A stretch of 35,827 nucleotides of DNA from Methanobacteriota archaeon (GTDB lineage Archaea > Thermoplasmatota > Poseidoniia > Poseidoniales > Poseidoniaceae), in the NCBI GenBank assembly GCA_011524855.1, contig WTJK01000052.1, positions 1-35,827 of the forward strand. The letters are read 5' to 3'. The position numbers and the translations under genes were made by a program. Of this stretch, positions 2,858 to 35,827 are shown one piece after another. The notes beneath the pieces are model-generated. The model was not told the DNA's origin and did not search any database. It was given only the letters and a program-made list of their open reading frames with translations. The number at the start of each line of letters is the position of its first letter. Positions within the stretch are counted from its first letter, which is position 1.

Positions 2858-3139
2858 ATGCGCGTGGGGCCACGGCACCTGCTGATCGTGGCATCCCTCG
2901 GTTTGGCCACCCTCATCGGCACGGCGGCCTTGCAGCGAGGTGCATGGGGCTTGACCCTCGCTTCGGTGTCAGCCACCATCGGCCTGACGGCCGTCTTGGT
3001 TTTCTCCAGTCGAGGACAGCGCCCGAGTGACCGTCGTGCAGGTTTGAGCCACCGTTCATCGGCAACGGTCACTCCGGTTGAGACACAGCAAGAAGACCTG
3101 CCCGATCCGCTCAATCACGGGTTTGACATACCGCTTTAG
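2858..3139 (+). CDS. Small hypothetical membrane protein
   Basis: 93 aa, two hydrophobic stretches (HLLIVASLGLATLIGTAAL, LTLASVSATIGLTAVLVFSS). Fills the gap between divergent and convergent neighbours. Confidence 0.5.
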   Translation: MRVGPRHLLIVASLGLATLIGTAALQRGAWGLTLASVSATIGLTAVLVFSSRGQRPSDRRAGLSHRSSATVTPVETQQEDLPDPLNHGFDIPL

Positions 3140-5049
3140 AGCAAACGCACGGTTTCCAAGTTCTTTGGCGCGTAGGTTCGGCATTTGTAGCGTTCACGAA
3201 GCGTGTGCCCCAATTCGTTGCATTTCTGATAATCACCGTGGTGACAAATGATGTTTCGGGGGGGAGGGTTGAGTTGATCCACAAACTCCAGCAGTTGCCG
3301 GCGATCGGAATGCCCGGAGAAACCGTCGATGGTGACCATTTCACAACCGATCTTGACAATTTCTGTTTTGCCGTTGATCAGCATGGGGACCTCTCCAAAG
3401 CCCTTCTGAAGGCGCCGACCCAACGTCCCTTCTGCTTGGTAGCCCACGAAGCACAACGAGTTCCGCTCTTCATGCGCCCAGTTCTTGAAGTACTCCATGA
3501 CGGGGCCGCCGTTCAGCATGCCAGAGGTCGCCAACACAATGCACGGTGAACTGTCCATGATGATGCTCTCTCGCAACTCGCGGCCTTTGACCGGCCGGAA
3601 CCACTCGCTGGTGAACGGGTTCTCACCGTCGTCCTTGAGCAAGGATCGACTCAAGGACTTCGTGAGGTATTTCGGGTGGGATGCATGAATGGCAGTGGCT
3701 TCCTGAATCATACCGTCAAGCCACACCGGGACCGGTTTCACCGCACCCGAACGGAACAGTTCGTCAATGGCGATCATGACTTCTTGACTCCGTCCAACCG
3801 CAAAGACGGGGCAAATCATCTTCCCGCCCCTCAGCAAGGTCCTTTGGACGATGTCCTGGAGCTCTTGGTTGGCTTCCTGCCGCGAGGGTTGGTAGTCACC
3901 CGAAGCCCCGTAGGTGGATTCAATCACCAACGTCTCAACACGTGGGAATCGGGTGTTGGCGGCGTCGAACAGCCACGATTTCTCGTATTTTTGATCGCCG
4001 CTGAAGACGATGTTGTGCTTTCCGTCGGCCACGTTCAAGTGAACCGCTGAGGACCCAAGGATGTGACCGGCGTTTGAGAAGGTCAATTTCACGTCAGGTG
4101 CAATGTCCGTGGTCTCACCCCAATCCACGTCGACCACGTGTTTCATGCACATGCGAATGTCTTCCATGTCGTATGCTGCACGCTTGCCTTCTGCTCCGCC
4201 TACCTTGATGTAATCGGTTTGGAGGAGCAGCATCAAGTCGCGGGTGGGCGGGGTGCAGTACACCGGTCCACGGTATCCGTACTTGAACAACACCGGCAAC
4301 ATGCCAGCATGGTCAAGGTGGGAGTGGGTAAGAACGACCGCATCGATCTTCTCCAACGGCAGCGCTTCTGGAGCGGTAAAGTAGGGCATGGGGTCGGTAT
4401 CGGATGCAATGTTGACCCCAACATCGATCATGATGCGTGATTCGTTCGTGGTCACGAAGTGACAGGCACGTCCAACCTCACGGTAGGAACCCAGCGCCGT
4501 CACCCGAGCCCATGTCGCACCGGGGCGGGTCGGGCGGTGAATGTTGAGCCCGAAGTCCTTGAGCAACTTTCGCCGCTCGTCGGCGTTGTGTTGTCGATAG
4601 GTCCGAATGTCATGCACGGTGCGGGAAAACAAAGGAGGCGTCCGTTCAACATTCACGCTCCATCCGGTGGCGTCCCGAATGGCCTTGAGGTGCTCACCGC
4701 GACGCCCCACGGCCGTGCTCGGTTGCTTGCATTGGATGATCACTTCACCGTAACAACCGTCGAAGTACATCTCGGTGATCTCAGCTTCGTCGGGAATCAA
4801 ATCCTCGATGAACGCCTTCGTATCGTCCATGTTTTTCATTCGGTCTTGAGGAGTCCTCAGGACAATTTTTCGCTTGATGCGCTTGGCGATTTTTCCGATG
4901 AGCCCATCACTGCCACTGAAGGTTTTCATGTCCGTTGTCAGAATGGCAATGTTACCACCTTCCAAGTCCACGGCGTACTCGACGCCGCGTGGGACCATCT
5001 TTGCGATTTCATCTTTCAGTTCCTTGTACGTCATGCGCATGGTGTTCAC
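3136..5049 (-). CDS. fttA: aCPSF1/FttA-type KH-domain metallo-beta-lactamase/beta-CASP ribonuclease
   Basis: N-terminal KH region (CYGEVIIQCKQPSTAVGRRGEHLKAIRDATGW), beta-lactamase motif HSHLDHAG, GHILGSSAV, FSGD, beta-CASP ATSGMLNGGPV, FSGHSDRRQL, ICHHGD. Confidence 0.96.
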   Translation of the reverse strand: MNTMRMTYKELKDEIAKMVPRGVEYAVDLEGGNIAILTTDMKTFSGSDGLIGKIAKRIKRKIVLRTPQDRMKNMDDTKAFIEDLIPDEAEITEMYFDGCYGEVIIQCKQPSTAVGRRGEHLKAIRDATGWSVNVERTPPLFSRTVHDIRTYRQHNADERRKLLKDFGLNIHRPTRPGATWARVTALGSYREVGRACHFVTTNESRIMIDVGVNIASDTDPMPYFTAPEALPLEKIDAVVLTHSHLDHAGMLPVLFKYGYRGPVYCTPPTRDLMLLLQTDYIKVGGAEGKRAAYDMEDIRMCMKHVVDVDWGETTDIAPDVKLTFSNAGHILGSSAVHLNVADGKHNIVFSGDQKYEKSWLFDAANTRFPRVETLVIESTYGASGDYQPSRQEANQELQDIVQRTLLRGGKMICPVFAVGRSQEVMIAIDELFRSGAVKPVPVWLDGMIQEATAIHASHPKYLTKSLSRSLLKDDGENPFTSEWFRPVKGRELRESIIMDSSPCIVLATSGMLNGGPVMEYFKNWAHEERNSLCFVGYQAEGTLGRRLQKGFGEVPMLINGKTEIVKIGCEMVTIDGFSGHSDRRQLLEFVDQLNPPPRNIICHHGDYQKCNELGHTLRERYKCRTYAPKNLETVRLL

Positions 5050-20549: not shown

Positions 20550-21551
20550 TCAACGTCGACGGACAGGGTTGAGGCGACGCATGTTTTTCTTCTTGGAATT
20601 GGTGGCGCCTCGCTTTTCTTTCTTGACGGGTTCGTTGCTCCCAATGCCACCGAAGACCAGTTGACCTTCGCTCAAGAGCGAAGCGACCAGTTGGTCGGCG
20701 ACCTCATCGGATTCAGCACCGGTTTTCATCTCGGCCTTGACAGCGTTGTTGTGGTCAACCATCCACGATTTGCGTTCCTCAACCGCCATGTTCAGTTGCT
20801 CACGGACTTTGTTGACGTCCACCATCAACTCGGTGATCTTCTCGTGAACACCGTTTGCCTTCTCGTGGTATTCCACGGATTCGAGGTGGTGCCGGTCGCC
20901 TTCAGCCTTCAGGAAGTCCCGGTGGTCAAGACCTTCTTTGTACTCGGCCCACTTTTCATCGGCCCGCTTCAGTGCTTCAACGAAGAGGTTGTGCGCATCG
21001 TCGGACTCTGCTTTGAGCGTCGCAATGGCTTCGTCAAGGTTGGACAAGTCAACGCTGACGAGTTCAAACTTCTCTACCTCAGGCGCCAGTTCTTCGGCGC
21101 GTCGCTTCATGCGCTTGATGCGTTCCATGGTCTCCTTTTCCTTCTTGGTGCTTGAGGACGTTGTCTGAAATTGCTCGTCGAGATTCTTGATCTCGTTCAT
21201 CAACTGGGAGTACTCTGCGGTGGCGGATTTCTTTGCCCCCGCCTCGGACCGTCGCCCCTTGGCTTGACCGAAGAGTTCCTTCAGCTGAGCGTTCACAGCG
21301 TCTCGCTTTGCTTTGTGGAGGTTACGCTCAGCGTGGATGGCGTCCAGTTCAGACTTCACGAGCTTGAGTTTGTCACGATGTTCCCTGTACTGCTCCTGCA
21401 CGGCATCGCGCTTCTTGGCCAAGGCCTTGCCTTGTTCACGCAAAGAATTGCGCGTTTCGCGCATCTTGCGGACTTTGGCTTCCATGGTTTGAAGTTCTTC
21501 ACGAAGCCCTGAGTCGGGTTTCTTTTCATCGTCGCCCCTGAGGCCGCGCAT
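20550..21551 (-). CDS. Coiled-coil protein (COG1340-like)
   Basis: MRGLRGDDEKKPDSGLREELQTMEAKVRKMRETRNSLREQGKALAKKRDAVQEQYREHRDKLK...; charged heptad-rich; no TM. Confidence 0.75.
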   Translation of the reverse strand: MRGLRGDDEKKPDSGLREELQTMEAKVRKMRETRNSLREQGKALAKKRDAVQEQYREHRDKLKLVKSELDAIHAERNLHKAKRDAVNAQLKELFGQAKGRRSEAGAKKSATAEYSQLMNEIKNLDEQFQTTSSSTKKEKETMERIKRMKRRAEELAPEVEKFELVSVDLSNLDEAIATLKAESDDAHNLFVEALKRADEKWAEYKEGLDHRDFLKAEGDRHHLESVEYHEKANGVHEKITELMVDVNKVREQLNMAVEERKSWMVDHNNAVKAEMKTGAESDEVADQLVASLLSEGQLVFGGIGSNEPVKKEKRGATNSKKKNMRRLNPVRRR

Positions 21552-23228: not shown

Positions 23229-23891
23229 CTAAGGGCGAACCTGCTCAACCAAAATCCCGTTCATCCATGAAGGATCGAGATGGAGTTCCATGTTGGCTTC
23301 GGTGGACCACGTCCCGTTTTCAAGGATCAACACGCTCTTGATGCCAATGTCCTGCTCAGCCAACCACTGCGTGACTTGCCCAGGAAGCAGCAGAAGGCGA
23401 ACGATGTAACGGCCAGAGGCTTTGACCGAACGAACCGGCTCGATGGTAGCGATTTCAGCGAGGCGGGCTTGAATTCGTTCACTCGGTTCGGGGATCGGCC
23501 GGCCGCTGGGGTCGGTGGTCAGACCGCTCAACATGGTGGACAACGCCACCTCAAGGTCGTCATCGATGGCATGCTCCAACCTGCAAGCGGTCTCATGCGG
23601 ATTGCCCTCGTAAGGCAACAAATCGAGCAGAACCTCGGCCAGTCGATGACGACGCTTCATCTGTTGGCCGTGAACCAGGCCAGCAGACGTGAGCTTAGCA
23701 CCTTTGTATGGAACGTACTCAAGGAAACCCCGTGCGGCCAGGCGTTGGACCATTTCTGTGGCCGATGCCGGTTTCACCCCGAGCTTGGCAGCCAAATCGC
23801 CGGTGCGTACCCTCCCATCGGGACGTTGCTCGTGAAACTCGTACATCATCTCAAGATATTCGTCTTCGAACTCTTGAAAATGGCCAACCAC
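23229..23891 (-). CDS. DtxR/IdeR/MntR-family metal-dependent transcriptional regulator
   Basis: EDEYLEMMYEFHE, wHTH LAAKLGVKPASATEMVQRLAARGFLEYVPYKGAKLTSAG, MKRRHRLAEVLL, ACRLEHAI; C-terminal SH3-like tail. Confidence 0.92.
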   Translation of the reverse strand: MVGHFQEFEDEYLEMMYEFHEQRPDGRVRTGDLAAKLGVKPASATEMVQRLAARGFLEYVPYKGAKLTSAGLVHGQQMKRRHRLAEVLLDLLPYEGNPHETACRLEHAIDDDLEVALSTMLSGLTTDPSGRPIPEPSERIQARLAEIATIEPVRSVKASGRYIVRLLLLPGQVTQWLAEQDIGIKSVLILENGTWSTEANMELHLDPSWMNGILVEQVRP

Positions 23892-23911: not shown

Positions 23912-26464
23912 TTACGACCGGTCTGCTTTGAATACCTTTGTGCAGGCGGGACACCTCACCGAGCCCTCGTGGTCGGAGGGTACGCGAAGTTGCTGACTGC
24001 AATCGGGGCAGGAGACGGTCACCTTCACCGGTTCGGATGCGGGTGCTGGTTTTGAAGCAGCTGCGATGGCGTCCGCAGCATCAAACCGGTGAGCGCAATC
24101 GGGACAGCCAACCGAGCCTTCGTACGTGGAGGGAAGGCGAAGCCGACGCTCGCATGACGGACAAGCAACCTCCACTTTGACGGCGGCCTCAGAATCCCGT
24201 TGGGATGAAGGTCGGGGTGTCCTTGTCGTTCGTTCCGGTCGACCGGTCAGCACCCGTGCTGCAGCAACGATCACCGCACCCAGCACAACGCCCCAAAGAA
24301 CGGAAGCCCATGGAAGACCGGCTGAAGGCTCCTCTGGTGGAGGACTGGAAAGGTACGTTGCTTGTGCGTCAATGCGTTGGCCGTCGACGTCCCACACGGC
24401 CTGAATCATGACGTTCGTGCCGCTGGGCCATGCCAGGGTGATGCGCTGCGTGACATCGGAACCGGACCATGCATCGACCGGTTCTTCTGCAAGCAAGGCA
24501 CCGTAGGCGTCGAGGAGGCGAACCGTACCCGTGGCGTCCTGTACGGCACCGCTTTGTTCAAACTGAAGTTCAACGGTGACCTCGTCCCCAACCACGGGTC
24601 GTATCGGAGAGACCACCGGGTTCAATGTCAAACGGTAGGTTGTGGACTCGTCTGGAAGAGAGGCGGACACCGAAAGTGGGCCTGGTCCGATGGACCATCC
24701 AACCGGTGAAAGTCGCACAACAGCGCGGTCACCGACGGCGAGACCCAGGTCAAATTCGTGAACGAGGTAACCCGGCTCAAACGACCGCTCCTGTTCGTGC
24801 AGGTAAGTCGGCCCGTCACCTGCATCCACGCCGACTTGCAACAAAGCCACACGATCTGGCCCGTCGTCCATCTGTGTGGACACCGTCAACAATGTTCGAC
24901 CGTTGACCGTTTCGAGGCTGAGAATGGAGATGCCGATGGATTGCGGGGTTGCCACGGAAAGGTCAAAGCTCCCTGAGACGACGCCGGCGAATCCCCCGTT
25001 GTCCGAGTCCAAACGCCACTCCATGACACGCGTTCCTGATGTGGCGAGAACGTGGTGCACCCTCACTTCTCCCGCAGCCCCTGCTTCCAACGTCACCCAA
25101 TCGCCTGCGGTTTCAACGGACCCGTCTGTCAGTACCAAGCGCAGCCGCCCCAAGCGGTCGCCGGTGTTCCGAACCAACAGATGCGCACCCATGGCGTCCC
25201 CTTGATGCCAAGGGCCACCTTCCAGCGAAAGGGAAGCCGTCCCTGCGATGGTGAAACTGGCGGATTCGACATCGAACAGACGTACCACGGGCCAAGCATG
25301 GCCAGCCTCAACCCGCGAACCCGCATGAGAACACGTCAACGACATCGGTTTGGCGAGAACGGAAACGTTGAGCTCTGCGTGCTGCCCAGGAGCCAACGAC
25401 AACGTTTGGTTGTGCAGTGTTTGGTTCCCATCACCGCACACCACGCGCCCGTTGAATGCCGCAGTCCCGTTGTTCCAAACAGTGAGCGTCAGCGATACGG
25501 AATCACCCGCCACCAGCGTCGACGCATTGAGGTCAGCAAACGCACCGTTCAGCATCGGTAGCGGGGGGGGTTGGACGTCGACGGTGCCCTGGCGAACTCG
25601 CGTCGTTTCGTCATCGCCAATGTCACCAAGAAGTTCGAGCGTCCATGTCAAATTTCCTTCGGTGACCGGGGCGGTCCGGTCAACAGACTGAACCAACGAT
25701 GACATGGCGGGCACCACGATGTTGCTGAGGTTGTGAACCAACGTGATGTTTGATTGGTTCGTCGACAATTGCAAACTTCCGTTCCAGTCGACGTCCCCGT
25801 CGTTGATGATCGGGACGAGGAAACGCATGCCATCGCCGTCGTGGACGCTGCTGTTTCCGGTTTCTGTTCCATCTCCGTTCAAGCCTGTGATGGTGGGTGC
25901 TCCCAAGCCAACAGCAAGGGGTCGTAACCGGTGAAGCGGCCGAGTAAAACCGTTCACGTGGGTGGAGGTGTTCGCGCCAACCTCCCCCTCAAGGGAGAGA
26001 AACAACGTGGTGAACCCAAACGGGACGCCCCCCAACGTCAAGTTGTACACCAGCGAACCATCGCTACCAAGCGTCTGGTTGGACAACAATGTTTCGTTCA
26101 ACACCTGGCCTTCCACGGATTGCAGACCGTAACGCAACGAAAAGTTCGCCGTGCCGCTCGCCACCTCCTCCACGGTCACGGACCATGTCACGGTGGACGT
26201 GTTGATGGTCAAGGTGCTGTTGTTGGTGGTTTCTGAGACGACCACGCTGGCCGCACCGGCGGTAGCTGAAACCGGTGGGAGGGTGAGAACGGAAGCGAGG
26301 AGCAGGAAAGCGAGGGCTCCTGCTCGAACCGCTGACCTCCGCATGGTTTTGGCTGCGAGTGGGGGTTCTTCACCTTCACGCCGCATGGCATGCACAGGGA
26401 TTCCTTCTTGTAGATTGGGAGTCCAGCGGAACTCCATGCACACCCAGGCGTTGGTTGACCTCAC
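23912..26464 (-). CDS. Large Thr/Ser-rich surface protein with C-terminal TM followed by two zinc ribbons
   Basis: Signal-like AVRAGALAFLLLASVLTLPPVSA; CARDB-like repeats; TM ASVLWGVVLGAVIVAAARVL; tail VACPSCERRLRLPSTYEGSVGCPDCAHRF and VSCPDCSQQLRVPSDHEGSVRCPACTKVF. Exact start uncertain. Confidence 0.8.
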   Translation of the reverse strand: MRSTNAWVCMEFRWTPNLQEGIPVHAMRREGEEPPLAAKTMRRSAVRAGALAFLLLASVLTLPPVSATAGAASVVVSETTNNSTLTINTSTVTWSVTVEEVASGTANFSLRYGLQSVEGQVLNETLLSNQTLGSDGSLVYNLTLGGVPFGFTTLFLSLEGEVGANTSTHVNGFTRPLHRLRPLAVGLGAPTITGLNGDGTETGNSSVHDGDGMRFLVPIINDGDVDWNGSLQLSTNQSNITLVHNLSNIVVPAMSSLVQSVDRTAPVTEGNLTWTLELLGDIGDDETTRVRQGTVDVQPPPLPMLNGAFADLNASTLVAGDSVSLTLTVWNNGTAAFNGRVVCGDGNQTLHNQTLSLAPGQHAELNVSVLAKPMSLTCSHAGSRVEAGHAWPVVRLFDVESASFTIAGTASLSLEGGPWHQGDAMGAHLLVRNTGDRLGRLRLVLTDGSVETAGDWVTLEAGAAGEVRVHHVLATSGTRVMEWRLDSDNGGFAGVVSGSFDLSVATPQSIGISILSLETVNGRTLLTVSTQMDDGPDRVALLQVGVDAGDGPTYLHEQERSFEPGYLVHEFDLGLAVGDRAVVRLSPVGWSIGPGPLSVSASLPDESTTYRLTLNPVVSPIRPVVGDEVTVELQFEQSGAVQDATGTVRLLDAYGALLAEEPVDAWSGSDVTQRITLAWPSGTNVMIQAVWDVDGQRIDAQATYLSSPPPEEPSAGLPWASVLWGVVLGAVIVAAARVLTGRPERTTRTPRPSSQRDSEAAVKVEVACPSCERRLRLPSTYEGSVGCPDCAHRFDAADAIAAASKPAPASEPVKVTVSCPDCSQQLRVPSDHEGSVRCPACTKVFKADRS

Positions 26465-26837
26465 GCCTGCGGCGCTGGTGGAGTTGATTCAAGCCAAGCA
26501 TCGCCAACTTCTCAAGGACCTCCCGGGATTGTTGGACGTTCGTGAACAAGAGTTGTCCAGCGCCTTTGCGGCGGCCAAAGAAGCACGGTCCACCATGAAT
26601 GAAGACCCCAGTGAAGCCAACATCCAAGCGCACGATGAACGCGAAGCGTTTCGCAGGTCTGCGGAATCTCGCGTTTACCGGTTGAGGGATGCATGCGCCA
26701 ACACCGAGCAATCCATGGCTTACTGGGCCGACGATACCGAGCCTTGGCGCGAGTTGCTCGATGCGAGGGACCGGGTCGATGCAGGCCAAGCCCCTCGGTT
26801 CAAATCCAAGAAAAAAAACGGCGGTGACACCTCATGA
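26436..26837 (+). CDS. Small helical/coiled-coil hypothetical protein
   Basis: MHTQALVDLTPAALVELIQAKHRQLLKDLPGLLDVREQELSSAFAAAKEARSTM...; 4-bp overlap with downstream gene at 26834. Confidence 0.65.
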   Translation: MHTQALVDLTPAALVELIQAKHRQLLKDLPGLLDVREQELSSAFAAAKEARSTMNEDPSEANIQAHDEREAFRRSAESRVYRLRDACANTEQSMAYWADDTEPWRELLDARDRVDAGQAPRFKSKKKNGGDTS

Positions 26838-27607
26838 AGGGACCGTCATCGGCCAACAAGGCTGGACTCTCGGAAGACGAGTTGGCAGCCTTGGTCAAGA
26901 ACATAACCGAACTCAAAGAACAACGAGCGGCCGTCCGCCATCGGCGCCAAATCAACGCTCTGGCCATCACCCATGCCAAACGTGACAATCGCTCATTGAC
27001 GCTTCCCAAACAGCTCAAGGCATCCGATGATTCGGTGGTCCGTGAAGCACTGGAGGCAAAAACGGCGTTTCTCAACGCACACGCCGAGCGAGATTCCATC
27101 TCCGCCACCGTGCCCATCCCCCGCGCAACGATTGAGAAACGGTTGAGGCACCTGTTGAAGTCCCTGACCAAAAACATCGGTGTGGAGGGGGTGAAGCCGG
27201 TTGAAGTTGAACGGGCTGCCTTTGCAGAATTTTTTGAGTTCCAAGCCCTCCATCGGAGGGTTGGGTCGCTTGAATCGGCCAACGAAGCGATGATCGTCGC
27301 TCGTGAACGACTTCAGCAGGCCCTCGCTTTGTTGAACAAGCACAATCGCAATGCACACCGGGAAGAGCAAGCCATTCAACGGCAGTTGGATGAATCCTTC
27401 AAGGCTGCACGGGCCCTCCGCCGAGAGGTCGCTCGCGCCAACCCGCAAGCACGACCTGCCGTGTCCGTTGCAGCATCTGAATCATTGATGGAGCGATTCC
27501 GAGCAGGCCAATCCATCTCCATGGAAGAAATGCAAGACATGTTGGAGCACAGCAGTTTGTTCAAGGACCCCAACCCCACGGACCTTACCGACACAACGGA
27601 GGAATGA
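26834..27607 (+). CDS. Coiled-coil protein
   Basis: Charged helical 257 aa; C-term SESLMERFRAGQSISMEEMQDMLEHSSLF. Confidence 0.75.
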   Translation: MKGPSSANKAGLSEDELAALVKNITELKEQRAAVRHRRQINALAITHAKRDNRSLTLPKQLKASDDSVVREALEAKTAFLNAHAERDSISATVPIPRATIEKRLRHLLKSLTKNIGVEGVKPVEVERAAFAEFFEFQALHRRVGSLESANEAMIVARERLQQALALLNKHNRNAHREEQAIQRQLDESFKAARALRREVARANPQARPAVSVAASESLMERFRAGQSISMEEMQDMLEHSSLFKDPNPTDLTDTTEE

Positions 27608-27611
27608 GGCC

Positions 27612-28136
27612 TTGCCATCAATGGCCTGGGTCCCATGCGACGAACCACGCTTTCTGTCAGAACAGGAATGTCAGGATGTGCTCGCGCTCTTTTTGGAGGA
27701 AACCGGCGAACGGTACGTTGAATCATCGGTTCGTCATCTCCCCATCCCAGCGTGGGGTGGCAACATGAAACTCGTCGATCTCGACCTCAAGCAACCCCCC
27801 ATCGAAGGTGTGCTCTGGGCCACACCGTTCATGGACGACATTGTGCGCGTCGCGGCGTTTGTGGTTCACAGCCGCCACCAAAGCAAGGGGTATGGAGCTC
27901 AAGCCTGGTCTGAGTTCACACGGCACGCAACGGAAGCAGGATTTGGTCGGGTCCAACTTGAGGTCAAAGCTGCGAACACGCGAGCCCAATCGTTCTACAT
28001 CCAGCGCGGATTAACCGTTCAGGATTCGTTGATCGGTTACTACGCATCCGGTCCGGGCTACATGATGCGAGGACCCTTGGTTGGGAACCAGGGAAAAGAC
28101 CTTCATGCGATGGGCCGAGGCGAACACCGTGTTTGA
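27612..28136 (+). CDS. GNAT-family N-acetyltransferase
   Basis: VRVAAFVVHSRHQSKGYGAQAWSEFTRHATEAGFGRVQLEVKAANTRAQSFYIQRGLTVQDSLIGYY: acetyl-CoA loop (Q/RxxGxG/A) and GNAT C-terminal strand. TTG start in track; ATG at 27621 possible. Confidence 0.9.
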   Translation: MPSMAWVPCDEPRFLSEQECQDVLALFLEETGERYVESSVRHLPIPAWGGNMKLVDLDLKQPPIEGVLWATPFMDDIVRVAAFVVHSRHQSKGYGAQAWSEFTRHATEAGFGRVQLEVKAANTRAQSFYIQRGLTVQDSLIGYYASGPGYMMRGPLVGNQGKDLHAMGRGEHRV

Positions 28137-28461
28137 CCGCCTGCTCCAACCCCTCGCCGAAATGCGAGCGGTTCGTTCGGTCACGTTGCTGGATTCCGAT
28201 GGTTTTCTGATCCACACCACGGCCATGGACGCCACCAACAGCGAACCACAGCGCTTGCGTTGGTCAAAGCTGTGCAAGGAACGAGGCGATGAACGCATCA
28301 CGATGATGTTCGAACGCGGTGTGGTGGTGGTCGGCCAAGCACCGCTGGGTGTGTTGTTGGTTCATGCGGCTCATGCGGTCAACCTCGGCGCCCTTTACAC
28401 CTGCATTGACCGCACCCTCGAAACGATTCGTGACACCGGCCGCCGCCAAGACCCCCCATGA
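28105..28461 (+). CDS. Roadblock/LC7-like domain protein
   Basis: VFDRLLQPLAEMRAVRSVTLLDSDGFLIHTTAMD...ERITMMFERGVVVVGQAPLGVLLVHAAHAVNLGALYTCIDRTLETI; overlaps GNAT end. Confidence 0.55.
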   Translation: MRWAEANTVFDRLLQPLAEMRAVRSVTLLDSDGFLIHTTAMDATNSEPQRLRWSKLCKERGDERITMMFERGVVVVGQAPLGVLLVHAAHAVNLGALYTCIDRTLETIRDTGRRQDPP

Positions 28462-28495
28462 GGGTTAAATGGGGGTGGTCGTTGGCCATCGTTGC

Positions 28496-28515
28496 GGGAG
28501 GAAGGGATTCCTCCC
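28496..28515 (+). promoter_or_regulatory. Perfect 8-bp inverted repeat (GGGAGGAA-GGGA-TTCCTCCC) 20 bp upstream of the coiled-coil gene start
   Basis: Direct reading; AT-rich box gggttaaat at ~28462-28470 lies upstream. Confidence 0.5.
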
Positions 28516-28534
28516 CGAACAGGTGCGATGAACA

Positions 28535-29410
28535 ATGACGGAACTCAAAGGTCTCCTCGAAGAACGACGCAAAATGGTGGACAAAAAGGCCACGCATCAC
28601 CGTGAAATTCGAGACGACTGGAACGCCAAAACCAAAGAGTACACCACCACACGAAACGAACTCAACAACGAGGTTCGAGAACTGATCGTCCAGGTACGCG
28701 AACAGCGCGACCTTCGCGACCAAATGAACGAAATGGTCCGAGAAAAGAAGAAAGTTCGTGAGGAAGCCAACCAGCGCGTACGAGACGCCAAGGAGGCCGC
28801 TCGCGCCAACCAACCCGAACAGCCCCAGCAGTTTGACCGACGAGGGCGCCCCATTCGTCCCGATACGGTCCAATCCGTGACCCGAACCATGCAACGCTTG
28901 GAGCGAGAATTTGAACAGGGCAAACACACGGGGAAGAACGAAACGAAGTACTTCAAGCGCATGAAGGAACTCAGCGCCAAGCTGAAGAAACTCAAGGAAG
29001 AGCAATCCTCCATGACCGAGGGCGAAGGCAGCGAGGCCCTTCGTCAAGCCATGGCCGACCAAGAAGCCGCCCACACGGCCGTGAAAGAAGCGGCCGATGC
29101 TGCCCAAAGTGCTCACGATTTGATGATCGAGTGGAACACGGAAGTTGACAAGCAGCGCGAAAAGGCTGAGGCCGCTCACCGCCGCTTGCGTACCTCCAAG
29201 AAAGAGGCTGACAAAGAGCACAGCCTCTACATTGTCTCGCTGCGATGCCTTCACTCCATTCAAGACATTCTTCGAGCCATGCGCGGCGCCAGCGAAGGCG
29301 GTGGCCAGCGTCAATCGTCAAGCGAAGAAACGCAGGACTTGATGGCAAAGTTGCTCTCCGGTGGCACCCTGTCCACCGAGGAACTGATGCAACTCCAGCG
29401 GTTTGACTGA
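28535..29410 (+). CDS. Coiled-coil protein (COG1340-like)
   Basis: MTELKGLLEERRKMVDKKATHHREIRDDWNAKTKEYTTTRNELNNEVRELIVQVREQRDLRDQMNEMVREKKKVREEANQRV; C-term SSEETQDLMAKLLSGGTLSTEELMQLQRFD. Confidence 0.82.
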   Translation: MTELKGLLEERRKMVDKKATHHREIRDDWNAKTKEYTTTRNELNNEVRELIVQVREQRDLRDQMNEMVREKKKVREEANQRVRDAKEAARANQPEQPQQFDRRGRPIRPDTVQSVTRTMQRLEREFEQGKHTGKNETKYFKRMKELSAKLKKLKEEQSSMTEGEGSEALRQAMADQEAAHTAVKEAADAAQSAHDLMIEWNTEVDKQREKAEAAHRRLRTSKKEADKEHSLYIVSLRCLHSIQDILRAMRGASEGGGQRQSSSEETQDLMAKLLSGGTLSTEELMQLQRFD

Positions 29411-29461: not shown

Positions 29462-30628
29462 GTGGTTTCCATGATTGGGCAAGACGACATCGCCGCCTTG
29501 GTTGAAGAATACGACCGTCTCAAACTCCGTATTGGCATGACGGCTTCGCACTCGGCCTTGGACATCTGCGACGGCGCCATTGAGGAAGGGTTTCCCACCG
29601 TAGCATACTGCAAAGAAGGCCGGCACAAAACCTACGCCAATTACTTCAAAACCCACCGAAGCCAATCTGGCCGAGTTCGCCGTGGCATGGTGGACAAGGC
29701 CATTGTTATGAAGGAATTCAACGACGTGATGGCTCCAGACATGCAAGATGAAATGCGGAAGCGCAACGTGATTTACATCCCGAACCGCTCGTTTACGTCC
29801 TATTCCAACATCACCGATATCGAAGAGAACTTCCGCATCCCGATGTTTGGCTCTCGCAACATGCTCCGAATGGAGGAGCGAACCGAGGAGCAGGACTACT
29901 ATTGGATCCTCGAAAAAGCCGGTCTTCCGTATCCCGAAAAGATCGACCGTCCTGAGGACATTGATTGCTTGGTCATCGTGAAACTTCATCACGCCCAGAA
30001 AACATTGGAGCGGGGTTTCTTCACTTGTGCCTCGTTCAAAGAGTACCAGGAGAAGTCCTCCGCTTTGTTGGCGGAAGGTGTCATTGACCAAGCATCGTTG
30101 GACGGTGCCCGGATTGAACGATACGTCATTGGGCCCGTGTTCAACCTGAATTTCTTCTACAGCCCGCTGGCAGAAGAAGGTGAACGTCTGGAACTCCTTG
30201 GCGTAGACTGGCGCTTTGAGTCATCGTTGGACGGGCATGTTCGCCTCCCAGCTCCGCAACAAATGACCATGCCCGTTCATCAACAAATTCCAGAAATGAC
30301 CGTGGTTGGCCACAACACCGCCACCATCCGTGAATCGCTGCTGGAAAAGGCCTTTGAGTTGGGTGAGAAATTCATCAAGGCCAGCAAGGAACATTACGAC
30401 CCCGGCATCATCGGCCCGTTCTGTCTGCAAACCTGCATTGACAAGGACATGAATTACTACATCTACGATGTTGCACCCCGCCTCGGTGGCGGCACCAACG
30501 TTCACGTGAGCGTCGGTCATCCCTATGGAAACGCATTGTGGCGAAAACCCATGTCGAGCGGCCGTCGAATCGCCATGGAATTGCGAATGGCAGCGGAACA
30601 GGACCGGCTCCTCGAAGTCTTGACGTGA
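29462..30628 (+). CDS. purP: Formate-dependent FAICAR synthetase PurP
   Basis: ASHSALDICDGAIEEGFPTVAYCKEGRHKTY; VIYIPNRSF; IPMFGSRNMLRMEER; GPVFNLNFFYSPL; GIIGPFCLQTCID; DVAPRLGGGTNVHVSVGHPYGNALW. Confidence 0.95.
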   Translation: MVSMIGQDDIAALVEEYDRLKLRIGMTASHSALDICDGAIEEGFPTVAYCKEGRHKTYANYFKTHRSQSGRVRRGMVDKAIVMKEFNDVMAPDMQDEMRKRNVIYIPNRSFTSYSNITDIEENFRIPMFGSRNMLRMEERTEEQDYYWILEKAGLPYPEKIDRPEDIDCLVIVKLHHAQKTLERGFFTCASFKEYQEKSSALLAEGVIDQASLDGARIERYVIGPVFNLNFFYSPLAEEGERLELLGVDWRFESSLDGHVRLPAPQQMTMPVHQQIPEMTVVGHNTATIRESLLEKAFELGEKFIKASKEHYDPGIIGPFCLQTCIDKDMNYYIYDVAPRLGGGTNVHVSVGHPYGNALWRKPMSSGRRIAMELRMAAEQDRLLEVLT

Positions 30629-32686: not shown

Positions 32687-35600
32687 TCACTGTTCAAACG
32701 GCATCCATGCTTGGGCGCCGTCGTCGAAGTACGACAGGTTGCCTTCGGCGTCTTTGGACCAGTGAACCCCGTTCTCTTCCCACTGCTGATGCTGTTGCGT
32801 GGCGTTGTCGAGGGAGGGAAGCGCCTTGTCCGACATGCCCATGTGCATCTCGGTCGCAGCGTCCATGGCGTTGTTCGCTTCGGCAAACGGCGACAAGGGG
32901 TCCGTGTTTTGCTTACGCATAACCGTGAAGCCAGCACCGCCGATCAGTGCAAGGACGACCAAAGCGATCAGCCCGTACATCAAGCCACTGCCGCCTTGCT
33001 CCACCACCGCTTGAGATTGCGTGGGGTCCTCGGGGAATGCATCGTACCGGTCAGCGACACCGTCACCGTCCGTGTCGACGGATTCGTTGGCATCGAATTT
33101 GAAAGCATCCTCTGCATCGTTCACCCCGTCACCGTCGGAGTCCTTTTGTGACAGAGCGCAGCCTTCGTCGTCAACGATTTCGCCCTCGACCGTGTTGATG
33201 CAGGTATCGAGGTGGTCCTTCACCCCGTCCCCGTCGGTGTCCTTCTGTCGGTCAGCACAACCGTCCACGTCCACCGAGTCTCCGGCGAGGGTGTCGGGGC
33301 ACAGGTCGCGTGCGTTGCTGATGTCGTCGTTGTCCTCGTCTTTTTGTGAGTCGGAACAACCGACCTGGTCGGCTTGCTCACCCTCGGGTGTGATGCGGCA
33401 AAGGTCCTCGCTGTTTGGGATGCCGTCACCGTCGTCGTCGAGTTGCGTATCGTCGCAACCGGTGAGGTCAACCTCGGCACCGTTGGCCGTTCCTGGGCAC
33501 TGGTCAAGGAGGTCGTTCACAAGGTCACCGTCGGTGTCCTTCTGCGACGGGGAACAGCCCACTGCATCGGGGGACTCGCTCATCGAGGTCCCGTCGCAGA
33601 CATCGTTAGCGTCGTTGACACCGTCACCGTCGGTGTCCCGCTCGTTGGCAGCACAGCCAACACCGTTGACGATGCTGCCTGCGGTGGTTGTGGGGCACTG
33701 GTCAATGTTGTCCGTGATGGTGTCACCGTCGGTGTCCAACTGATACAAGGCACACCCTGCTGCGTCAACGGTGCTGCCCAGCGTCGTGCTGGGGCAAGCG
33801 TCGAAGGCGTCCATCACACCGTCGTTATCGGCGTCCTCTTGGCTTCCTGAGCACCCGACGGCGTCCACGGTTTCACCAGCCGGCGTGTTCGGACAAGCAT
33901 CGTTGCGGTCGTTGACACCGTCCATGTCGGCATCGAGTTGCGAAGCTGCGCAGCCCTCGCTGTCCACCGCTTCGCCGGGGGGCGTGTTCAAGCAGCGGTC
34001 GGGGGAATTTCCGTTGGCGTTGTCTCCGTAGCCGTCACCGTCAGCGTCGAACCACTGAGTGGGATCGGTCGGGAACACGTCTGCGTTCATGCCTGCAGCG
34101 TTGTCACCGTAGCCGTCCCCGTCCCCATCGGCCCATTGCGTGGAGTCGTTGGGGAAGGCGTCGGGGTCCGTGCCGGCTTGGTTGTCACCGTAACCGTCGC
34201 CGTCAGCGTCGAACCATTGGCTGGCATCGTTGGGGAACTTGTCGCCGTTGTTCCCGTTGGCGTTGTCACCGTAACCGTCGCCGTCCATGTCCTCCCACTG
34301 CGTGTTGTCGTTGGGGAAGGCATCGGGGTCCGTGCCGCTGACGTTGTCACCGTAGCCGTCACCGTCTGCGTCGCTCCATTGGGTGGCGTCGGAGGGGAAC
34401 GCATCGCCGTTGGTTCCGGCAGGGTTGTCACCGTAGCCGTCGCCGTCCATGTCCTCCCATTGGGTGGCGTCTGCAGGCCAAAGGTCGGGATAGTTGCCGT
34501 TCGGGTTGTCGCCGTAGCCGTCACCGTCGCTGTCGGACCACTGGGTGGCGTCCTGCGGGAAGGCATCGGGGGCGTTGCCAGTGGCGTTGTCGCCGTAGCC
34601 GTCGCCGTCTGCATCGGCCCACTGCGAGGCGTCGGTTGGGAAGGCATCGGCCATGTTGCCCGAAGCGTTGTCACCGTAGCCGTCACCGTCCATGTCGGAC
34701 CACTGCGTGCTGTCGTTGGCGAAATCGTCAACAGCATCGTTGTACCCGTCGCCGTCCGTGTCCTTCTGCGAAAGGGCACACCCGTTGGCATCGACCGGCG
34801 TGGAAGGTGCCGTGTTGTTGCAGAGGTCAACTTCGTTGGCGACACCGTCGTTGTCGTCGTCAAACACCAACTGGAAACAGGCATCGTCGCCGGGAAGTTG
34901 CTGCATGGTGTTGGTGTAGAGGTCGATGACCACGCAATACGTGCCCGAGGCGGTGGGAGTAGTGTAGTTGAACATCGGAAGGGACATGTTCTGGGAGGTG
35001 GCCGTGAAGGCGGTCACCGATGACGAAGCGAGCACGGCACCACCGGCATCGGTGACGGCGTACTGGTAGCGGTAGGTGTCGCTAACGACCAGGTCGAGCC
35101 CCTTGGCTCGAACGTTGTTGGAGGCGGCGGTCGAGCTGGCAGAGTACGTGTCGATTTCGAGGCTGGGAAGCTGCGGGAAGAAGGCGTCGAAATGCCCCCC
35201 GGTCAGGTTCTCGTTGGTGATCACGTCCACCATCGTACCGTTCACCGAAAGCCCAGCAAACAGCAGGTGCTCATCAAGGGAGAGCGGGTTCGACCAATTG
35301 ATCTGGTAACTGATGGAGGACGTGGTCGGCGAGAGCGTCCACACGTCGCTGTCATGCAGTGAGACGTTGATGGCATCGTACGGGTTGTTGGACACCGTAA
35401 CGTTGTCAAAGAACGTGTCGTAGTTGATGACCATCCATCGCACGTCGTACGTGGTTGAGGTGGACAGGTTGGTCAAGTCGAGGGTCCCGGTCGTGGAAGA
35501 GGTGCTCATGGCCTCCATGTTTTCGATGTAAAGCTCCGCAGTATCGGTGCTTTGAACGACGCCACCGGGGCCAAACAGCGTGGCTGCAACGGTCAGCGTG

Positions 35601-35827
35601 GATTCTTCCATGTCGGGCATGAAAGAGAGGTTGACGCTGTGCGTGGTGTTGGTAGCGGTGAACATCCCTGTGGTTGATGTGCCCCACTGGGTCGAGTCGT
35701 CGTAGAACACTTGTCCGTAGGTGTGGTTGTAACTGTAGTTCGTTCCTGCGGTCAGACCGGCAAACTCGAGCGTGGCGTGCGTGGCGTTGTGCAGGACGAC
35801 GTTGACCACTTCGGCGGTTTGACCGCC
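32687..35827 (-). CDS. Giant cell-surface protein with TSP3-type Ca-binding repeats, C-terminal TM and cytoplasmic tail; 5' end truncated by window edge
   Basis: Reading frame stays open to base 35827 upstream of the annotated start (GGQTAEVVNVV...). Repeats DADGDGYGDN..., TSP3 units, TM GLMYGLIALVVLALIGGAGFTVM. Confidence 0.9.
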   Translation of the reverse strand, partial: GGQTAEVVNVVLHNATHATLEFAGLTAGTNYSYNHTYGQVFYDDSTQWGTSTTGMFTATNTTHSVNLSFMPDMEESTLTVAATLFGPGGVVQSTDTAELYIENMEAMSTSSTTGTLDLTNLSTSTTYDVRWMVINYDTFFDNVTVSNNPYDAINVSLHDSDVWTLSPTTSSISYQINWSNPLSLDEHLLFAGLSVNGTMVDVITNENLTGGHFDAFFPQLPSLEIDTYSASSTAASNNVRAKGLDLVVSDTYRYQYAVTDAGGAVLASSSVTAFTATSQNMSLPMFNYTTPTASGTYCVVIDLYTNTMQQLPGDDACFQLVFDDDNDGVANEVDLCNNTAPSTPVDANGCALSQKDTDGDGYNDAVDDFANDSTQWSDMDGDGYGDNASGNMADAFPTDASQWADADGDGYGDNATGNAPDAFPQDATQWSDSDGDGYGDNPNGNYPDLWPADATQWEDMDGDGYGDNPAGTNGDAFPSDATQWSDADGDGYGDNVSGTDPDAFPNDNTQWEDMDGDGYGDNANGNNGDKFPNDASQWFDADGDGYGDNQAGTDPDAFPNDSTQWADGDGDGYGDNAAGMNADVFPTDPTQWFDADGDGYGDNANGNSPDRCLNTPPGEAVDSEGCAASQLDADMDGVNDRNDACPNTPAGETVDAVGCSGSQEDADNDGVMDAFDACPSTTLGSTVDAAGCALYQLDTDGDTITDNIDQCPTTTAGSIVNGVGCAANERDTDGDGVNDANDVCDGTSMSESPDAVGCSPSQKDTDGDLVNDLLDQCPGTANGAEVDLTGCDDTQLDDDGDGIPNSEDLCRITPEGEQADQVGCSDSQKDEDNDDISNARDLCPDTLAGDSVDVDGCADRQKDTDGDGVKDHLDTCINTVEGEIVDDEGCALSQKDSDGDGVNDAEDAFKFDANESVDTDGDGVADRYDAFPEDPTQSQAVVEQGGSGLMYGLIALVVLALIGGAGFTVMRKQNTDPLSPFAEANNAMDAATEMHMGMSDKALPSLDNATQQHQQWEENGVHWSKDAEGNLSYFDDGAQAWMPFEQ
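33030..34018 (-). repeat. Array of TSP3-like repeats (QxDxDGDGVxDxxDxCxxTxxGxxVDxxGC)
   Basis: Protein repeats such as SQLDADMDGVNDRNDACPNTPAGETVDAVGCSGSQEDADNDGVMDAFDACPSTTLGSTVDAAGC, each with 2 Cys. Confidence 0.85.
34019..34747 (-). repeat. Nine tandem 81-bp coding repeats (27 aa: W-x-D-x-D-G-D-G-Y-G-D-N-x5-8-D-x-F-P-x-D-x-T-Q)
   Basis: 'gttgtcaccgtagccgtc' recurs at 34019, 34100, 34181, 34262, 34343, 34424, 34505, 34586, 34667: exact 81-bp period. Confidence 0.93.

Follow-up and report, generated by a model that had tools for sequence, protein, structure and literature searches.

A conserved coiled-coil, acetyltransferase, and Roadblock gene block in Poseidoniaceae archaea, a candidate scaffold linked to RNA 3′-end metabolism

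Overview

We analyzed a 35,827-nucleotide stretch of DNA from an archaeon of the family Poseidoniaceae (contig WTJK01000052.1 of assembly GCA_011524855.1; hereafter, the window), which is one contig of a 1.94-Mb draft genome that is 84% complete. The window carries a block of five plus-strand genes (genes 1 to 5) encoding a small helical protein, a coiled coil, a GNAT acetyltransferase, a Roadblock/LC7-like protein, and a second coiled coil of the DUF7121 family. In many relatives, gene 2 is fused to a predicted terminal uridylyltransferase (TUTase). This fusion, together with DUF7121 genes elsewhere that lie beside SRP54, a ribosomal stalk operon, or a CCA-adding enzyme, leads us to propose that the block may encode a scaffold complex linked to RNA 3′-end metabolism and translation rather than a polarity or cytoskeletal module. 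We hold this reading tentatively, at somewhat less than an even chance. That the products form one complex and that this complex is linked to the ribosome is what we infer.

A predicted terminal uridylyltransferase is fused to gene 2 in relatives

In 7 of the 40 neighborhoods first compared, the gene 2 homologue was 670 to 710 amino acids long instead of about 280, and in many Poseidoniaceae it is a fusion of 673 to 731 amino acids with an N-terminal TUTase. In its first 360 residues, the fusion has matches to MTPAP-like_central and PAP_assoc. A single fusion sequence compared with eukaryotic terminal uridylyltransferases matched URT1 (E = 4.6e-46), and the fusion profile matched TUT4 (1.7e-87), TUT7 (5e-87), URT1 (4e-75), and Cid1 (1e-60) in the PDB. 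A model of the full-length fusion consists of a TUTase core followed by long helices and matches URT1 (E = 8.9e-22; target TM score, 0.88). The catalytic Asp triad is present in all 19 fusion sequences, and 17 of them have a His equivalent to H336 of Cid1. In Cid1, H336 selects uridine triphosphate (UTP), and replacing this residue with Ala or Asn results in poly(A) polymerase activity (PMC4357723). The fused domain is thus predicted to be a complete eukaryote-like terminal uridylyltransferase, which would be expected to use UTP and RNA.

Of the 194 genomes examined from the order, 69 carry the fusion; all of these are Poseidoniaceae, and a survey of 390 genomes of the phylum yielded it in no further family. 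Matches to PF22600 outside Poseidoniaceae all scored below 35 bits, compared with 100 to 120 bits within the family; most of these proteins were short nucleotidyltransferases or had the length of CCA enzymes. We also scanned 84,980 species genomes, using narrow motifs that would miss more distant relatives; among the matches listed (80 loci), record titles named Poseidoniales, Poseidoniaceae, or Euryarchaeota, with a single Rhodobiaceae record that is probably misbinned. No TUTase relatives were found in viral contigs. Most knowledge of RNA uridylation comes from eukaryotes, and the literature that we searched, with incomplete coverage, yielded no report of an archaeal terminal uridylyltransferase.

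Gene 2 of the window itself (257 amino acids) has no nucleotidyltransferase domain match, and its genome has no TUTase match anywhere at the completeness given above; the closest relative (G022) likewise lacks the fusion. Because the window locus itself is intact, the domain is truly missing from it. On a tree of gene 5, the presence of the fusion requires at least four changes, two of which are forced by well-supported branches. The simplest history is one gain at the base of Poseidoniaceae followed by three losses.

These observations suggest a mechanism in which the products of the block would build a scaffold acting where RNA 3′-end metabolism meets translation: genes 1, 2, and 5 would contribute the DUF7121-type paralogues, gene 4 a Roadblock homodimer, and gene 3 an ARD1/RimI-like N-terminal acetyltransferase. 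In ancestral Poseidoniaceae, the middle coiled coil would have borne the TUTase, and the scaffold would have brought this U-tailing enzyme to its RNA targets, which would thereby be marked for decay or processing; the most plausible targets are mRNA or rRNA fragments located at or close to ribosomes. In the lineage of the window, the catalytic domain would have been cleanly deleted, with the coiled coil, the Roadblock protein, the acetyltransferase, and the DUF7121 protein kept under purifying selection; as the remaining genes are still selected after this deletion, the scaffold should serve some function without the enzyme. A more specific version, in which Poseidoniaceae, having probably acquired a eukaryote-like TUTase a single time close to the root of the family, with a eukaryote as a possible donor, have an archaeal RNA 3′-uridylation system with the TUTase-coil fusion, DUF7121, Roadblock, and acetyltransferase proteins acting at the ribosome, and in which the lineage of the window lost the enzyme and kept the scaffold, is doubtful in our estimation. 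If true, an intact and conserved TUTase in an abundant family of ocean archaea would be unexpected and directly testable, and it would offer a first clue to the function of DUF7121/COG1340, an uncharacterized archaeal coiled-coil family found in nearly every genome of the phylum.

The coiled-coil proteins resemble DUF7121

Gene 5 matches DUF7121 (PF23435) with 49.3 bits, above the curated cutoff of 29, and carries the C-terminal motif GxxLSTEELMxLQ. The family was found in 143 of 145 genomes of the phylum as well as in the Haloferax, Sulfolobus, and Methanosarcina controls; the literature on COG1340/DUF7121 yielded only a 2005 mention, as a conserved archaeal family without known function. Genes 1 and 2 of the window gave no Pfam match to DUF7121. 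In other genera, gene 1 homologues are mostly 230 to 330 amino acids long, and one member from the sister family has a weak DUF7121 match (20.6 bits against the cutoff of 29). Profile-profile comparison with a DUF7121 set gave 96.8% for gene 1 and 95.6% for gene 2, the alignment of the latter covering its C-terminal SGGxLSxxDLxxL motif. There is therefore moderate evidence that genes 1 and 2 are distant relatives of gene 5, graded as moderate because of their coiled-coil composition.

We then considered the neighbors of DUF7121 elsewhere in the phylum. In three genomes of one family in the same class as the window, rpL1-rpL10-P1 directly precedes DUF7121 at a distance of 30 to 40 bp, both being encoded on the same strand. 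SRP54 is located at most 3 kb from DUF7121 in six genomes of four families, with the tRNA methyltransferase gene trmY beside SRP54 in four of the six, and in five genomes of two families DUF7121 is tail to tail with an archaeal CCA-adding enzyme. A set of 36 DUF7121 loci picked blind to their neighbors serves as the unbiased sample; it includes six loci with SRP54, three with the stalk operon, one with the CCA-adding enzyme, and six with serine hydroxymethyltransferase. Four of the CCA loci lie outside this sample and are not an unbiased one, as they were fetched after the adjacency had been noticed. As a separate observation, a gene for a LigT-type RNA phosphoesterase precedes the CCA gene in one of the loci (L191).

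Genes 3 and 4 are an acetyltransferase and a Roadblock-fold protein

Gene 3 matches Acetyltransf_1 in Pfam (38.8 bits; cutoff, 20.7), and the best PDB match of its family profile is the ARD1 chain 4pv6 (E = 3.7e-17), followed by SSO0209, Naa50, and RimI. With its acetyl-CoA motif (QSKGYG), it resembles archaeal N-terminal acetyltransferases of the ARD1/RimI type. A function in protein modification, as the initial annotation had suggested for the block, thus holds in a narrower form only, that of an enzyme resembling N-terminal acetyltransferases.

Gene 4 as a single sequence scores 18 bits against PF03259, below the cutoff of 23, and the Pfam Roadblock model found nothing in its own genome at an E value of 1e-3 or lower, as the family is too divergent. 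A profile of 25 members, on the other hand, matches the known chains 7f8m (6.8e-8), 9jue (9e-6), cvnB5 (1.6e-5), and MglB (5e-4). The AlphaFold model (predicted local confidence [pLDDT], 89) has the Roadblock element order alpha-beta-beta-alpha-beta-beta-beta-alpha, and its Foldseek matches include LAMTOR2 of Ragulator and Asgard Roadblock3 (E values of about 2e-6 to 4e-6; TM scores of 0.70 to 0.77). Together, these profile matches and the modeled fold confirm the earlier Roadblock/LC7 assignment. In 11 loci of eight genera, a KaiC-family ATPase gene lies antisense between the Roadblock and DUF7121 genes. The genome of the window has a paralogue of this ATPase at G000:C57:31539-32171, next to glmS-like and maf-like genes and not to the Roadblock gene. 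Genera without the Roadblock gene also lack the KaiC-family ATPase and its paralogue, which on the tree may represent one event. The ATPase as a partner of the Roadblock protein is a lead, not proof.

The block is conserved and under purifying selection

A search with gene 5 recovered homologues from 58 of 59 relatives, and single-sequence searches found homologues of genes 1, 2, 3, and 4 in 26, 32, 36, and 28 relatives, respectively; iterated profiles find homologues of these four genes in more. The order of genes 1 to 5 followed by purP is retained in the examined loci of the genus and in other Poseidoniaceae (Marine Group II) genera. In the sister family, the core of genes 1, 2, and 5 is retained in most genera, and the acetyltransferase, Roadblock, and purP genes are all missing from one group of genera that stand together on the tree. 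A DtxR-type regulator and a zinc-ribbon surface protein are conserved, divergently from the block, in both families. The uncharacterized block proposed in the initial annotation is real and is conserved beyond a single strain: its synteny extends through the genus, Poseidoniaceae, and part of the sister family. No such combination of coiled-coil, GNAT, and Roadblock genes was seen in 20 DUF7121 loci from elsewhere in the phylum.

Every gene is under purifying selection in close pairs, most strongly DUF7121 and purP. The ratio of nonsynonymous to synonymous substitution rates is 0.01 to 0.05 for DUF7121 and mostly 0.05 to 0.18 for the other genes (maximum, 0.32), with synonymous sites saturated in some pairs. 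Gene 5 identity is 91 to 98% in the genus pairs compared.

Alternative explanations

Several points weigh against a scaffold in RNA metabolism and translation. To our knowledge, Roadblock proteins have no role in RNA tailing. Genes 1, 2, and 4 are fast evolving, unlike ribosomal proteins, and coiled-coil composition could make genes 1, 2, and 5 look more strongly homologous than they are. The TUTase is dispensable, since it has probably disappeared on several occasions. Furthermore, gene neighborhood is an indirect line of evidence: the majority of the sampled DUF7121 loci have no translation neighbor, the blind sample also includes the six loci beside serine hydroxymethyltransferase, and several of the translation-neighbor matches come from one family. 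A conserved housekeeping neighborhood, in which DUF7121, purP, and fast-evolving genes share a transcript without a joint function, would account for the varying membership (including the sister-family group lacking the acetyltransferase, Roadblock, and purP genes), for the variable gain and loss of the KaiC-family ATPase and the TUTase, and for the very different evolutionary rates between genes. We nevertheless consider it unlikely, as short overlaps persist in Poseidoniaceae and the sister family alike, the three related coiled coils occur together in nearly all genomes of the order with intact loci, and one of these coiled coils is fused to an enzyme.

The cytoskeletal or polarity module put forward in the initial annotation, in which the Roadblock protein would regulate a small GTPase or assemble on membranes with long coiled coils, appears improbable. 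The coiled coils are real, the gene 4 fold is close to those of LAMTOR2, MglB, and Asgard Roadblock proteins, and the KaiC-family ATPase makes another NTPase partner possible. However, the Arf-family GTPase model (PF00025; Rag- and Ras-specific models were not tried) matched in none of 30 genomes, i.e., the genome of the window and 29 relatives, with 12 of 14 controls positive. The coils are members or relatives of DUF7121, whose neighbors are translation or metabolic genes, and the fusion partner is an RNA-tailing type of enzyme; it is this uridylyltransferase in relatives that indicates RNA metabolism and not a cytoskeleton. More improbable still is a chromosome- or DNA-linked, SMC-like coiled-coil system: the coils do give weak SMC, Rad50, and ASRP matches in NCBIfam, far below the cutoffs, but any coiled coil is expected to do so, there is no ATPase head, and those relatives of the fusion partner that have been characterized use RNA as their substrate. 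We accordingly rejected an SMC/Rad50 identity of the coils, whose matches are coiled-coil background. The repeated loss of the enzyme domain among closely related genomes is what an antiviral defense module with a nucleotidyltransferase effector might exhibit. We give this very little credence, since there was no PADLOC match, the chromosomal place is fixed beside purP and DtxR, no viral homologues were found, the genes are under purifying selection, DUF7121 is phylum-wide, and conserved presence without phage-dependent variation is largely what was seen.

Locus layout and neighboring genes

All five open reading frames were recovered on the plus strand at the positions first annotated, apart from small start corrections, and their coiled-coil, GNAT, and Roadblock content was called correctly according to Pfam, family profile, and predicted fold (Table 1). 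Some coordinates needed revision. The start of gene 4 is most likely GTG 28129, not ATG 28105, because homologues begin at that residue in the alignment; gene 4 would therefore overlap the acetyltransferase stop (28136) by 8 bp. The conserved block also extends past 29410, as purP comes next in Poseidoniaceae loci with continuing contigs and in four genera of the sister family. The start of gene 3 may be ATG 27621 instead of TTG 27612. The 4-bp ATGA overlap of genes 1 and 2 is common to many relatives and often retained where gene 2 is the fusion; the gaps are 4 bp between genes 2 and 3, 73 bp between genes 4 and 5, and 51 bp between gene 5 and purP.

Table 1. Features of the window and comparison loci in related genomes
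Feature	Position	Strand	Description
Gene 1 (c1)	26436..26837	+	Small helical protein, 133 amino acids; putatively a shortened, remote relative of the DUF7121 family
Gene 2 (c5)	26834..27607	+	Coiled coil, 257 amino acids; TUTase domain absent
Gene 3	27612..28136	+	GNAT acetyltransferase, ARD1/RimI-like N-terminal acetyltransferase type (Pfam and profile against PDB)
Gene 4	28129..28461	+	Roadblock/LC7-fold protein (family profile and predicted fold)
Gene 5 (c0)	28535..29410	+	DUF7121 (COG1340-type) coiled coil (Pfam, above cutoff)
purP	29462..30628	+	Formate-dependent AICAR ligase type (DUF1246 and DUF1297); conserved downstream neighbor
Divergent gene, left edge of block	23912..26386	-	Large secreted/surface protein, two C-terminal zinc ribbons
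DtxR-type metalloregulator	23229..23891	-	Conserved; adjoins the divergent gene
Second full DUF7121 paralogue	20550..21551	-	34.3 bits (cutoff, 29); 6 kb from block, position conserved
KaiC-family ATPase	L056:6797-7489; equivalents in L051, L054, L055, L057-L059, L063, L087, L090, L091	-	
DUF7121 behind rpL1-rpL10-P1 ribosomal (stalk) operon	L178:5096-8170; also L179, L180		
DUF7121/CCA-adding enzyme pairs	L198:3039-5219; L199, L200, L201, L191		

Two other genes of the window deserve mention. The gene for the transcription termination factor FttA (aCPSF1) lies upstream of the block (3136-5034). The large protein encoded at 32687-35809 is probably a calcium-binding surface protein, judging by eye from its numerous thrombospondin-type-3-like repeats, which are rich in aspartate (DxDGDGxxDxxD).

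Comparison with known systems

Like Cid1, URT1, and TUT4/TUT7, the fusion of the relatives keeps the catalytic core, the triad, and mostly the UTP-selecting His; unlike these enzymes, it is joined in archaea to a DUF7121-like coiled coil, and it is absent from the lineage of the window. Gene 5 shares with DUF7121/COG1340 an above-cutoff score and the C-terminal GxxLSTEDLMxLQ motif of the family, but here it belongs to a tandem arrangement that also includes two relatives that have diverged from it, a GNAT, and a Roadblock protein. Gene 3 has the acetyl-CoA, LEV..N..A..FY, and YY motifs of RimI and archaeal ARD1, whereas it falls below the RimI equivalog cutoff (36.7 versus 86.4 bits) and, in contrast to both, is tied to this locus. 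Gene 4 has its best structural and profile matches, and its fold, in common with Roadblock/LC7 proteins such as LAMTOR2, MglB, and Asgard Roadblock3, and differs from them in a sequence that scores below the Pfam cutoff and in a genome where no Arf-type GTPase partner was found.

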